Source of the DNA: Clostridiales bacterium
GTDB lineage: Bacteria > Bacillota > Clostridia > Oscillospirales > Oscillospiraceae
DNA length: 64,000 nucleotides
NCBI GenBank assembly: GCA_029265405.1
Contig: JAJUJI010000004.1
Coordinates: 1-64,000, forward strand
Reading direction: 5' to 3'
The position numbers were made by a program, and so were the translations under genes. The notes beneath the pieces were generated by a model. It worked only from the letters and a program-made list of their open reading frames with translations, ran no database searches and was not told the origin of the DNA. This document shows positions 54,994-58,359 of the stretch, piece after piece. How positions within the stretch are numbered: position 1 is the first letter of the stretch; each line of letters starts with the position of its first letter.

Positions 54994-56424
54994 TCAAGGG
55001 CTATTTATCTGTTCTTTTTTATTAAGGCATGGAGTATCGATTTCCAGCCTTCCGAGCCCGTCGAAGAGGATGCAGACGCGCTTAGCGTAGCCGGCCGCGT
55101 TATCGTCAAGCTGTTCGATAAGCAGGCTGGCCTTATGCGCAGAGATTATTTCATGCAGAGTCATAAGCCCTATACCGCTGCCGCCCTCGCCTGCGTGGGT
55201 GGTTATTCTTTTTTTGCCTATGCTCTCCAGGACCTCGGCCGGAAAGGGCTCGCCGCTGTCGTAAACGCTGACAAAGTAAATATCGTCGGCGGCCCCGATG
55301 CCGACCAGCACTTTTTTTGCCGCGCTGTTTTTCACAGCTATAAGCGCGTTTTCTATAAGGTCGGCGAGAAGGGTGTTCAAATCCGATTCGGAGACGACGC
55401 TTTCCAGCATATATCTTACGCTTCCGGTAAGGCTCAAGTCAAAAGAGACGCCGCCAGCGGCCGCCCTGCCGAGCATATAGGCAAATAGGGCGTCTATGGA
55501 GGCCACATTTGTCAAGGGCAGCGCTTTGTTTTCCGCCTGATATGCGTTTAAAACCTCAAAACGCTCGCGGGACATTTCCTCCAGCCGCCCGGCCAGCTCA
55601 AGCCCCTTTTCTCTAAGCGTCTCGTCGCCGGCGCCGCCGAGATAGGCTCTGACCGCCAGCTCCATAGCCGGTATGAGCTTGTTGTCCTTATGTATGATTT
55701 TGGAAAGCTCCGCGTTTTGCCGCTCAAGATATTCAATGCGCTTATCCTTTTCCTTCAGCAGCTCGTAGAGCCTCTGCAGCTCGTTTTCCTTCAGCCTGCT
55801 CAGATACAGCTTCTTTATGCCGTTGCGCCACCAGAGCAGAACCAGCGTCGCGCATATCAATATGGATGCGGCGGGAATTACATAAAAATACTCAGTGTTA
55901 TTTGTGAAAAGCATGATTGCCCCGCACAACAGTATTACGCTGATTATAACCCCGGCGTTGGTCCCGCCTTTGTTGATCAAAAAGGGCATTCCTTTTTTTA
56001 AACGCTTGATTTTATAAGGAAGCCGCATGACCGCAAGCTGCAGAGCAGAGGATATAAACGAAGGATAGATGAAATCCAGCTTGCGATCCGGTTTGATCAG
56101 CATTATTGCTGAGGAAACACATAACGCGGACACCGTATATGTTGCATAGCTGATTCCATACGACAATATAACCGCTGAAACAGTTATTTCAAGCGAAGTC
56201 CTTTTTAATAAAACAATATAGGCGACGGTTGGCGCTGCCATAAAAGGAACCACCAGGGCGGGGAAACGCTTCCAAATGATTGAAGCTGCAAACGATACCA
56301 GTAAGCAAAAGCAAATATCGGCAAGCGCGGCCAGGTGCGCCGGCTTGTTTAGACCCAGCAGCTTTGAAAAGGTATATAAAACGCATAACATGATTGAAAA
56401 TAGTCTGACGAAATTTGGAAGCAT
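54994..56424 (-). CDS. GHKL-type sensor histidine kinase, multipass
   Basis: This 476-residue kinase has about six to seven N-terminal membrane segments (to about residue 200), a coiled coil (about 205-240), a phosphoacceptor-like segment SKIIHKDNKLIPAMELAVR, and a GHKL ATPase domain with N box DLIENALIAVKNS and G box GEGGSGIGLMTLHEI. The layout is that of peptide-sensing AgrC-type kinases. ATG 56424 follows GGAG. The Spo0A-like regulator at 56794-57579 on the same strand is the likely partner, and the micro-ORF at 56550 lies between them on the other strand. Confidence 0.88.
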   Translation of the reverse strand: MLPNFVRLFSIMLCVLYTFSKLLGLNKPAHLAALADICFCLLVSFAASIIWKRFPALVVPFMAAPTVAYIVLLKRTSLEITVSAVILSYGISYATYTVSALCVSSAIMLIKPDRKLDFIYPSFISSALQLAVMRLPYKIKRLKKGMPFLINKGGTNAGVIISVILLCGAIMLFTNNTEYFYVIPAASILICATLVLLWWRNGIKKLYLSRLKENELQRLYELLKEKDKRIEYLERQNAELSKIIHKDNKLIPAMELAVRAYLGGAGDETLREKGLELAGRLEEMSRERFEVLNAYQAENKALPLTNVASIDALFAYMLGRAAAGGVSFDLSLTGSVRYMLESVVSESDLNTLLADLIENALIAVKNSAAKKVLVGIGAADDIYFVSVYDSGEPFPAEVLESIGKKRITTHAGEGGSGIGLMTLHEIISAHKASLLIEQLDDNAAGYAKRVCILFDGLGRLEIDTPCLNKKEQINSP

Positions 56425-56549
56425 TAGGCGTACTCCGTATAACAATTAATAACAAAAATACAACAAAAAATGCATAACGAATACAAACTGAAATATACGC
56501 ATATTTTACCTACACTGCATTTATAAAATCGACAGCGGAGGTGAAAAAT

Positions 56550-56603
56550 ATGTGGTGGAAAGAATGGTGGTATTGGTTTTGCCGGTTCTTTCAGTCGGCG
56601 TAA
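56550..56603 (+). CDS. 17-residue Trp-rich micro-ORF, candidate signal peptide
   Basis: ATG at 56550, stop TAA at 56601-56603, product MWWKEWWYWFCRFFQSA: five Trp, three Phe and one Tyr in 17 residues, one Cys, net charge about +1. The ribosome site is excellent (GCGGAGGTGAAAAAT, GGAGG 9 bases before ATG) and TATAAA stands at 56522-56527. It lies on the plus strand between a membrane kinase and a response regulator on the minus strand. WW-containing short peptides act as pheromones elsewhere (ComS/XIP). It has no export leader or processing site visible. It might instead be an antimicrobial or toxic peptide, or chance. Confidence 0.55.
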   Translation: MWWKEWWYWFCRFFQSA

Positions 56604-56793
56604 ACGATATTGTTTCTCCATGGCCAGGCGCTGCGCAAGGTTGAACGTATTTTAGCGCATTTCTTCCAAAAAACTCCGTACTGACTGCATCGGGGCTGCG
56701 TAAGACCCGGCTTCCCCAGGGAGGCTGAGCCAAATCCGCAGCCCTGAAAATTTGCGCAAATGCCCGCTGAAACGGAGTAATTTCGCGCTTGCG
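56604..56793 (-). ncRNA. Folded intergenic element between regulator and kinase genes
   Basis: On the minus strand an outer helix ACTCCGT (56778-56772) with ACGGAGT (56679-56673) encloses GGGCTGCG/CGCAGCCC (56744-56737 with 56700-56693) and an inner CTTCC/GGAGG hairpin. It is followed by a run of T (56673-56668). It could be an attenuator or terminator after the response regulator gene or a small structured RNA. No known family was recognised with confidence. Confidence 0.5.
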
Positions 56794-57579
56794 TTAAAGC
56801 TCGTTTTTCAGCTTGTTTACGTAATAATAAATAAACTCCGTCAGCGTGGGCACTCCCTTTTCGGAGCTGATTTTTGCGGTGTAATACCTGGCCAGATCGT
56901 CGATATCGGCGGTATGCCAGGCTTTGTTTATGGCGTTCTGCATCGCCCGCTCCACGCTTACGTCCGTCTTGCCGTACTTTCTGCCCAAGGCGGAGCAGAT
57001 GCCGGTTTCCTGCTTCTGAAGTATCATTATTATGGCGTCGAGAAGATAGGCGCGCCCAATGTGCTTTGGGCTGATGCCGACGCGGTCAAGCTCCGCCGAA
57101 AGCAGCCTGGCGAGACGTTTTTCCGCTTGCGTCGGCGCCTCGCTCGCGCGCAGGCTTTGCTGCCTTCCGCCGTTCCTGCTTTGTATGGCTTCCTTCATCA
57201 GCCTGAGCAAATCGATGACGGCTTTCGGGGAGAAATCGGCCTGATGCTTGGACATTATGAAGTCCGCGCCCAGCTTCCTGGCGTATTCGTAGGTTACGCC
57301 GCTCGTATTGTTGGTGGAAACCAAGATATACGGCCTATACGGGAGGGCTGCTCCGTTGAGCTCCTGCAGAAAGCGCAGGCCGTTTCCTGCCCCCCGGTGC
57401 AGCTCAAGATCCAAAATAACCGCGTCCGGCAGGGAACTCTTGACATAATCAAGAGCCGCCTCGGAGCTGTTTGTAATTTTTCCAAGATACACGTCGTCGA
57501 GCTCGTCGACGTAGCGCCTTATTTTGGCGCAAAGCTCCTCGTCGTCTTCCACCAGCAGAAGGCTCAGCATTTCGTTCAC
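56794..57579 (-). CDS. Spo0A-like response regulator
   Basis: This roughly 261-residue protein has a receiver domain (LLLVEDDEELCAKI, phosphoacceptor in AVILDLEL, Lys in IMSKHQAD) and a C-terminal domain that follows Spo0A's DNA-binding domain: GISPKHIGRAYLLDAI, the recognition helix region TDVSVERAMQNAINKAWHT and GVPTLTEFIYYYVNKL. It is not Spo0A itself, since the linker and receiver differ and the partner kinase is adjacent. I take GTG 57579 (GAGG 10 bases before); ATG 57570 is possible. Its own promoter at 57621-57649 carries repeated ATTGGTT motifs, suggesting autoregulation. Confidence 0.85.
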   Translation of the reverse strand: MNEMLSLLLVEDDEELCAKIRRYVDELDDVYLGKITNSSEAALDYVKSSLPDAVILDLELHRGAGNGLRFLQELNGAALPYRPYILVSTNNTSGVTYEYARKLGADFIMSKHQADFSPKAVIDLLRLMKEAIQSRNGGRQQSLRASEAPTQAEKRLARLLSAELDRVGISPKHIGRAYLLDAIIMILQKQETGICSALGRKYGKTDVSVERAMQNAINKAWHTADIDDLARYYTAKISSEKGVPTLTEFIYYYVNKLKNEL

Positions 57580-57620
57580 GGCATCCAAACCTCACAATGA
57601 TACATTATTTTTTTAATACT

Positions 57621-57689
57621 TATATATCATGTTTGCGGCGAAAAACCAATAAAAAGCAATGAAAACCAATGAAAAATCCCTAATTGGTT
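57621..57689 (-). promoter_or_regulatory. Promoter and repeated operator of the Spo0A-like regulator
   Basis: On the minus strand, TTGGTT (57649-57644) and TATATA (57626-57621) are 17 bases apart. The -35 box is part of ATTGGTT (57650-57644), repeated 20 bases upstream (57670-57664) within a longer direct repeat, and present once more inverted (57683-57689). Direct repeats two helix turns apart at the -35 are typical activator sites. Confidence 0.65.
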
Positions 57690-57987: not shown

Positions 57988-58359
57988 ATGAAAAAGCGGA
58001 TGGTCAATTACCGCAGAAAGGTCGAAGCCGCGCTCTCGGGCGGGGGTCCGGCGGATTGGGAAAAGCTGAGGGAAGAACACCTTGTCCGGATTTCCTTTTT
58101 TCAGCATGAGCGGGCGATGCATCTGGCCGTTACGGGCTTGTTCGGCCTGATAGAGGTGCTGGCGGCGGCGCTTTATCTTAACAGCCGTTCGCCGTCCGTC
58201 TGCGCCTTCGGCCTTGCCGTTCTCGTCCTGCTTGTGCCGTATGTCTTTTATTATTACGGCCTGGAAAACGAGCTGCTTAGGCTCTACGCGCTGTATGACC
58301 GCATAGCCGAAAAAAGCGGTGAAGGCATCATATCGCAGCCGGAGAGGCCTGGAGCCTGA
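57988..58359 (+). CDS. Small two-helix membrane protein of unknown function
   Basis: This 123-residue protein is not recognised. It has a charged N-terminal half (to about 40), two hydrophobic helices (about 45-63 and 70-90, ending VPYVFYYYGLENELLRLYALYD), and a short charged tail. GGAGGTCGACGCAA precedes the ATG. It lies next to the two-component locus and shares the AGCGGAGGT ribosome context with the micro-ORF at 56550. It might be part of the same signalling locus or an accessory membrane protein. Confidence 0.7.
   Translation: MKKRMVNYRRKVEAALSGGGPADWEKLREEHLVRISFFQHERAMHLAVTGLFGLIEVLAAALYLNSRSPSVCAFGLAVLVLLVPYVFYYYGLENELLRLYALYDRIAEKSGEGIISQPERPGA

Follow-up and report, generated by a model that had tools for sequence, protein, structure and literature searches.

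In a Clostridiales bacterium, a 17-codon open reading frame (ORF) encoding a tryptophan-rich peptide lies in the gap between the genes of a membrane histidine kinase and of a Spo0A-like response regulator. The DNA analysed, hereafter the window, comprises the first 64,000 nucleotides of contig JAJUJI010000004.1 (assembly GCA_029265405.1). This micro-ORF is real and is a member of a conserved family, and its conservation and coding constraint are established by computation. Judged from sequence comparisons, there is a good chance that its product, a probably secreted peptide without leader, serves as a ligand of the kinase and takes part in an autoregulated loop. The locus comprises the following features:

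56550 to 56603, plus strand: the micro-ORF MWWKEWWYWFCRFFQSA, 17 residues without leader, with its ATG at 56550 and a stop codon ending at 56603.
56537 to 56543, plus strand: Shine-Dalgarno sequence (SD) GGAGGTG, 6 nt ahead of the ATG, read directly from the sequence.
54994 to 56424, minus strand: membrane histidine kinase of 476 residues from ATG (a TTG at 56445 is a possible start), with an invariant His245 and HATPase_c above cut-off.
55810 to 56424, minus strand: N-terminal sensor part of the kinase, residues 1 to about 205, with about seven predicted membrane helices, delimited by structure model and family comparison.
56794 to 57588, minus strand: response regulator of 264 residues from TTG, with REC and Spo0A_C domains both above the Pfam cut-off.

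The regulator is the first gene of the operon and the intergenic gap (56425-56793) measures 369 nt. The first-pass annotation of the window had described a 17-codon plus-strand ORF with a strong ribosome site in this gap, and this description is confirmed, as is the count of nine aromatic residues out of 17 (5 W, 3 F, 1 Y). The absence of a leader, also claimed there, turned out to be a trait of the whole family. At the window locus, the micro-ORF is encoded on the strand opposite to both kinase and regulator, and it is the sole SD-preceded ORF of 10-20 codons (ATG or GTG start) in the gap. When the gap was shuffled 5000 times with preserved dinucleotides, an SD-preceded ORF within this size range that contained Trp and was no less than half hydrophobic arose in 117 rounds; such an ORF had three or more Trp in a single round and was at least 50% aromatic in none. 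Across the 64-kb window there are 39 such SD-preceded ORFs, among which the micro-ORF is the only one at least 50% aromatic and the only one with at least three Trp. The peptide MWWKEWWYWFCRFFQSA matched none of the NCBIfam models.

Homologous loci were collected by regulator or kinase similarity, and micro-ORFs played no role in the selection. A search for the regulator in 99 relatives gave matches at 1e-20 or better in 8 of them. For the kinase, 10 of 394 genomes from the order and 12 of 400 from the family contained a match. A 10-row alignment of kinases then served as query against genome contigs, and of the 100 relatives obtained the best 80 were retained; 69 of these 80 kinase loci carry a regulator of the same kind directly upstream on the same strand. 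The window and further genomes were added, giving 77 distinct regulator-kinase pairs; L153, L154 and L156 duplicate L076, L125 and L072 and were not counted. An SD-preceded, Trp-containing ORF of 11-19 codons is present in the gap of 69 of the 77 pairs, a count made with a slightly wider list of SD sequences than the stricter one below and with a scan reaching 40 nt into the regulator gene. A conserved Trp-rich micro-ORF thus accompanies most homologous kinase-regulator pairs, and the condition that the first-pass annotation had set for a refutation, homologous loci lacking it, gave the opposite outcome.

Under one fixed stricter rule, applied to gaps of at least 140 nt, the micro-ORF was found in 57 of 63 gaps, against a mean of 1.73 (standard deviation 1.46, maximum 6 in 200 rounds) in dinucleotide shuffles of the same gaps. 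Among 118 control intergenic regions taken from these loci, three satisfied the rule, including one (in L060) that itself precedes a kinase of the family. The choice of micro-ORFs required at least one Trp, so that the Trp share is partly built in; shuffles and controls were also subjected to this rule. Such recurrence makes a chance ORF, in whose favour the 117 looser matches among the shuffles of the window gap might be cited, hardly credible.

Eleven of the 80 kinase loci have no regulator that could be found upstream. In two of them, L060 and L098, the kinase is preceded by a Trp micro-ORF; none was seen in the available stretch of the other nine, the kinases of L082, L088, L089 and L124 being located at a contig edge. 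According to the record labels, the loci (79) belong to Clostridia (62) or Bacteroidia (2) or have no class label (15, one of them labelled Melainabacteria); the odd class labels (Bacteroidia, Melainabacteria) belong to metagenome bins. A first pattern search based on the Trp spacing of the window peptide matched 11 of 99 genomes, compared with 5 for the reversed control, and besides the window none of the matches was tied to a homologous locus. Carriage of the system as mobile-element cargo was rejected: no kinase relative was found in plasmids or phages and none was confirmed in viral contigs (79 pattern stretches). Two loci from a distant kinase branch (L158, L159) show the same layout with another type of peptide, MRKQGDWLDDL..., and the principle may extend beyond this kinase family. 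In L050 (genome G286), one regulator and one micro-ORF are followed by three more-or-less complete kinase paralogues, one of them interrupted beside a transposase-like ORF.

The strand of the operon is shared by 36 micro-ORFs, and 33, the window's among them, lie on the other one; for L118 the automatic antisense pick was swapped by hand for a sense ORF, hence 36/33 instead of 35/34. In a rapidly built tree of the kinases (77 rows, with SH-aLRT as the sole support measure), sense and antisense loci are parted by one change, a result which depends on the manual choice for L118. The window falls within an antisense set of 37 rows (33 antisense and 4 without micro-ORF; support 100), and the absence of the micro-ORF requires six changes on the tree. 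In 17 sense-type loci (e.g. L110, L117, L103, L113), a gene coding for an XRE-type helix-turn-helix protein (Pfam HTH_3 in two examples) is found upstream of the regulator on the opposite strand. This gene is absent from the window and may be a fourth member of the system in the sense clade.

Representative peptides are MSWWEYLLWFLNRNH, MSFWEWLMYAAGL and MWDWLFRLMFP for the operon strand, and MWKEIWRLMCDIIAGR, MLKWFWDLAIFWFWI and the window's own for the opposite strand. After the initial Met, the family is composed of 17% Trp (Trp being required for picking), 0.1% Pro and 1% Cys. The peptides have the periodicity of amphipathic helices, as judged from their sequences. Their hydrophobic moment exceeds that of shuffled peptides most strongly at 100 degrees per residue, the angle of the alpha-helix (mean z 1.47, against 0.33 at 80 and 0.15 at 120 degrees), and 39 of the 69 are within the top tenth of their own shuffles for the helical moment. 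Substitutions between related loci are more conservative than random, with rank 15 of 500 or better in 8 of 12 pairs and ranks of 43, 80, 106 and 256 in the other four; these pairs reuse L103 and L133. In L084 and L111, tandem copies of the micro-ORF with the same SD encode near-identical peptides.

These properties bear on the proposal that the ORF is a leader peptide whose Trp codons attenuate transcription of the kinase. The Trp codons, the SD and, in sense loci, the position of the kinase downstream on the same strand are in keeping with it. However, the ORF points away from the kinase in 33 of the 69 loci including the window, and attenuation was for this reason rejected as a general account. 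The helix periodicity and the conservative changes at non-Trp residues also disagree with it, as does the failure to find any terminator pattern in the window region, and we regard it as very improbable.

The putative receptor is the kinase. Its Pfam match to HATPase_c is above cut-off and that to HATPase_c_5 (GHKL) below; in the 38 aligned kinases, HATPase_c was found in 35 and HATPase_c_5 in 19. The structure model (pLDDT 85.4, pTM 0.53) places six helices before a long helix beginning at residue 182, and the kinase is thus predicted to have about seven membrane helices. According to the model and the alignment, the membrane part is followed by a helical region with the invariant His245 and then by the ATPase domain. 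The N-terminal sensor part is the fastest-evolving region of the kinase in the family, and no Pfam family recurs there in more than 6 of the 38 aligned kinases (for the VIA-align rows, a family not named for a row is not thereby excluded). In a structural search with the cytoplasmic part, the cytoplasmic domain of AgrC came out on top with a Z-score of 15.8, tied with many other kinases. The earlier designation as a multipass AgrC-type kinase holds up in part: a multipass topology is suggested by the modelled helices, and the AgrC relationship has the top, though tied, cytoplasmic match on its side but no consistent Pfam family in the sensor.

An indication that peptide and sensor belong together comes from mosaic loci. 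The DNA of L110 and L117 is 89-100% identical across the regulator and 92-93% across the micro-ORF promoter. Identity drops to 50% in a 90-nt window starting inside the micro-ORF, remains at 37-52% down to kinase residue ~195, rises to 73-74% over the next two windows and is back to 86-100% through to the end of the kinase. The two peptides have their first five residues, MSWWE, in common and differ in the remainder; at the protein level, the regulators are 98% identical, the sensors 25% and the kinase cores 93%. L117 has in addition an insertion of ~300 nt after the regulator. Similar mosaics (regulator, sensor and core identities) were observed for L087/L103 (90, 35 and 85%), L096/L103 (80, 37 and 88%) and L097/L108 (84, 21 and 64%), while L067/L076 combine alike peptides with alike sensors (96, 73 and 87%). 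The kinase of L134 is split into two pieces, and L123/L134 was for this reason excluded when the cores were compared. The end of the peptide and the sensor are replaced like a cassette in some pairs, which suggests that they are matched and indirectly supports the earlier proposal of a peptide ligand sensed by the kinase. Such replacement in near-identical loci also suggests that the peptide acts outside the cell as a pheromone, in the manner of agr and com types.

The output side would involve the regulator, whose Spo0A-type DNA-binding domain had been predicted and is borne out by Pfam (Spo0A_C, E 2.6e-20). Against the Spo0A equivalog model TIGR02875 the protein scores 93.9 bits, below the cut-off of 200, and unlike Spo0A it would have a dedicated kinase and peptide. 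The window genome contains one other, distant match to it (31% identical). Tandem 10-bp repeats are found at the promoters:

57646 to 57675, minus strand: candidate operator preceding the regulator gene and consisting of the 10-bp units TTTTCATTGG TTTTCATTGC TTTTTATTGG in tandem, identified as a perfect three-unit array and by the family pattern.
56439 to 56469, plus strand: possible but weak operator for the micro-ORF, made up of three degenerate units of the AACAA type at a spacing of about 10-11 bp, with the register set by eye.

The first array holds the only repeat pairs with at least 17 of 20 matching positions anywhere in the window; the window genome has one further operator match, with two mismatches, compared with 2 for a reversed-pattern control. 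Regulator promoters of the family carry tandem TTTTYRTTGS units with a period of exactly 10 bp. Pairs of at least 16/20 occur in 38 of the 77 promoters (shuffle mean 4.5) and pairs of at least 18/20 in 21 (shuffle mean 0.15). At lag 10, 25 of the 77 promoters and no shuffle attain a self-similarity of 19/24; at lags 6-9 and 11-15, at most 1 does so. The complement SCAAYRAAAA precedes the micro-ORF on its own strand (at least 16/20) in 17 of 33 antisense loci (2.35 by chance) and 8 of 36 sense loci (1.2 by chance); no such pair was found on the strand opposite the micro-ORF in either set (0/33, 0/36). The orientation of the repeat relative to the micro-ORF is thus constant in both arrangements. 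The distance from the end of the pair to the start codon is 71-80 nt in 14 of the 15 scored antisense loci (96 nt in the 15th), and for the nine sense loci that were scored it is 72-115 nt; the candidate array of the window ends, by eye, 80 nt before the ATG, at the family's usual distance. In 557,162 bases, 57 pairs of at least 18/20 were counted, 36 in regulator promoters, 12 in the gaps and 9 elsewhere, eight of the latter preceding a regulator reading frame by 47-326 nt (in L080 and L081).

For a Spo0A-type DNA-binding domain one would expect 10-bp units arrayed head to tail around a CGAA-like core, resembling the tandem 0A boxes bound by Spo0A. The repeats upstream of regulator and micro-ORF lend indirect support to the suggested output through the Spo0A-like regulator. 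Translational control may be added: a stem-loop in the 5' leader of the micro-ORF pairs with or abuts the SD in 21 of 69 loci at rank 0-1 of 30 shuffles (examples are L087, L096, L110, L121 and L132), and mean SD pairing is 0.585 versus 0.460. An SD-masking hairpin is unsupported in the window (rank 8 of 30), and an Rfam scan returned no known RNA element, its sole match being a sub-threshold pemK (56940-57030, E 0.97).

Further operator arrays were noted in the genomes of L079, L081 and L056 (G757:C13:93319-93358, G757:C15:31590-31629, G751:C3:33192-33261, G751:C31:94403-94432 and G753:C20:53759-53788). They precede two paralogous operons of 61-residue and 216-224-residue membrane-anchored proteins, a lipoprotein-like gene, cdaA, and an acyl-carrier protein with a membrane protein. 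These are possible output genes; reversed-pattern controls gave 1-5 matches in the same genomes. The closest relatives of the regulator in the first search, L024 (49% identical) and L025 (45%), have neither kinase nor micro-ORF, and no Trp micro-ORF was found in the scanned stretches adjacent to the orphan regulators L024, L025 and L026 (39-49% identity with the window regulator). On the plus strand (57988-58359), in divergent orientation to the regulator gene, the window encodes a small predicted membrane protein of 123 residues without Pfam match.

Taken together, these elements could form a self-contained peptide-sensing two-component system. The micro-ORF would yield a short, linear, leaderless, Trp-rich amphipathic helix (11-19 residues in the family), to be bound and sensed by the N-terminal membrane domain of the kinase. 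The kinase would phosphorylate the REC-Spo0A_C regulator, and this in turn would bind the 10-bp tandem repeats that precede its own gene and, in many relatives, also precede the micro-ORF. Binding at both promoters would close a feedback loop, of presumed sign and with presumed output genes. The peptide, once translated and exported, would most likely act extracellularly as a pheromone. We consider it likely that the peptide is a ligand of the membrane domain and that the regulator feeds back on its own locus, and somewhat less firmly we favour the view that it acts between cells.

Several observations weigh against this model. Eight of the 77 pairs retain regulator and kinase without a Trp micro-ORF: six have short gaps of 17-85 nt (L059, L072, L073, L074, L104, L122), and the other two are L102 (gap of 252 nt) and L129 (gap of 149 nt, regulator split over two frames). 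The peptides of L069/L075 are unlike even though their sensors are alike (regulator 80%, sensor 82%, core 83%), and L071/L100 (93, 29 and 71%) differ over most of the kinase including the linker, beyond the sensor. Over all 69 loci, peptide similarity correlates with the core (r 0.24) and with the sensor (r 0.17), and the partial correlation for the sensor given the core is 0.06, a value reached in 51 of 500 permutations. Restricted to 24 independent pairs, the comparison gave rho values of 0.61 (core) and 0.38 (sensor; p 0.064). The covariation statistic thus failed to single out the sensor, peptide similarity tracking the kinase core at least as well. At the window locus, the repeat of the micro-ORF promoter is degenerate (best pair 14/20, under the 16/20 threshold) and no promoter or terminator consensus was found. 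Finally, the 366 neighbour ORFs within ~3.5 kb of the loci showed no exporter or processing gene that recurs; the recurrent neighbours are the XRE-type gene, an ABC ATPase (8 loci) and kinase paralogues.

The lack of both a leader and a recurrent exporter nearby would suit a cell-autonomous regulator, i.e. a peptide that stays inside, inserts in the inner leaflet and tunes the membrane helices of the kinase with no cell-cell signalling. The amphipathic helix and the repeats upstream of the micro-ORF, which suggest regulator feedback, would suit it as well. Such a loop would be reminiscent of MgrB, a 47-residue membrane protein acting on PhoQ: in both cases a small peptide would act on a sensor kinase in a feedback loop, but the amphipathic peptides described here have 11-19 residues and are encoded within the two-component locus. 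The rapid replacement of peptide end and sensor fits pheromone types better than housekeeping feedback, a point which is not decisive, and we hold this alternative to be rather unlikely. Trp-rich amphipathic helices also bring to mind a membrane-active effector, such as a small bacteriocin or a modulin-like peptide, whose production the kinase and regulator would control upon sensing the peptide or membrane damage. With the operator consensus used here, no target beyond the locus itself is known in the window genome, as if the peptide were the product. However, the net charge of the 69 peptides is centred on 0 (27 neutral, 20 negative, 22 positive), unlike that of typical cationic antimicrobial peptides, and no recurrent immunity gene was seen among the neighbours; this explanation appears improbable.

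The first-pass annotation knew of no described system with this set of genes, and none was found in our literature search, most subscription papers being outside its coverage; a search with words of the family peptides matched no paper. The ComCDE and BlpCHR systems of streptococci employ linear unmodified amphipathic helical pheromones, a multipass kinase with variable sensor, pheromone types and autoinduction, together with a precursor with a double-glycine leader, a dedicated exporter and a LytTR regulator. The present family appears similar in mature peptide length, in the linear amphipathic helix, in the predicted multipass kinase with variable sensor and probably in pheromone types and autoinduction; in contrast, the whole window ORF has 17 codons, there is no double-glycine leader and the output domain is Spo0A_C instead of LytTR. 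In AgrBDCA, AgrD is cyclised by AgrB via a Cys (thiolactone). Likenesses to it include a putative multipass GHKL kinase with a regulator, the mosaic variation of peptide and sensor and the tied top match of AgrC, whereas the leaderless 17-residue ORF and the scarcity of Cys (~1% of family residues) set the family apart from AgrD. No recurrent AgrB-like cluster was present among the same 366 neighbour ORFs, the genomes themselves not having been searched for AgrB.

The nearest described idea is that of the leaderless communication peptides (LCPs, e.g. SIP), which are paired with RopB-type RRNPPA receptors, cytosolic TPR regulators that bind the reimported peptide, and have mostly 8-10 residues (PMC10518010). 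As in the LCPs, an ultrasmall SD-preceded ORF without leader or cleavage site is situated beside a receptor gene and codes for a hydrophobic or aromatic peptide whose sequence varies between relatives (PMC10518010). Unlike in LCP systems, the neighbours here are a HATPase_c membrane kinase and a REC-Spo0A_C regulator without TPR match in Pfam, the hosts are Clostridia, and the peptides of the 69 loci are putative helices of 11-19 residues.

If the proposed system is confirmed, it would join leaderless peptides, known with cytosolic receptors, to membrane-kinase pheromone systems, and would raise the question of how a leaderless peptide exits the cell. Ready synthetic ligands would also be at hand, because a product without a leader to be mapped should itself be the signal. 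Specificity can be tested directly on those near-identical loci in which the end of the peptide and the sensor have been exchanged. The chances seem evenly balanced that the family is a widespread undescribed class of quorum sensing in gut and animal-associated Clostridia. In such a class, ribosome-ready leaderless Trp-rich helical pheromones would act through a dedicated membrane kinase, types would arise by cassette exchange of peptide end and sensor, and a Spo0A-type regulator would feed back mainly on its own locus. This would amount to a layer of peptide signalling in gut Clostridia that was missed because its genes have only 11-19 codons.

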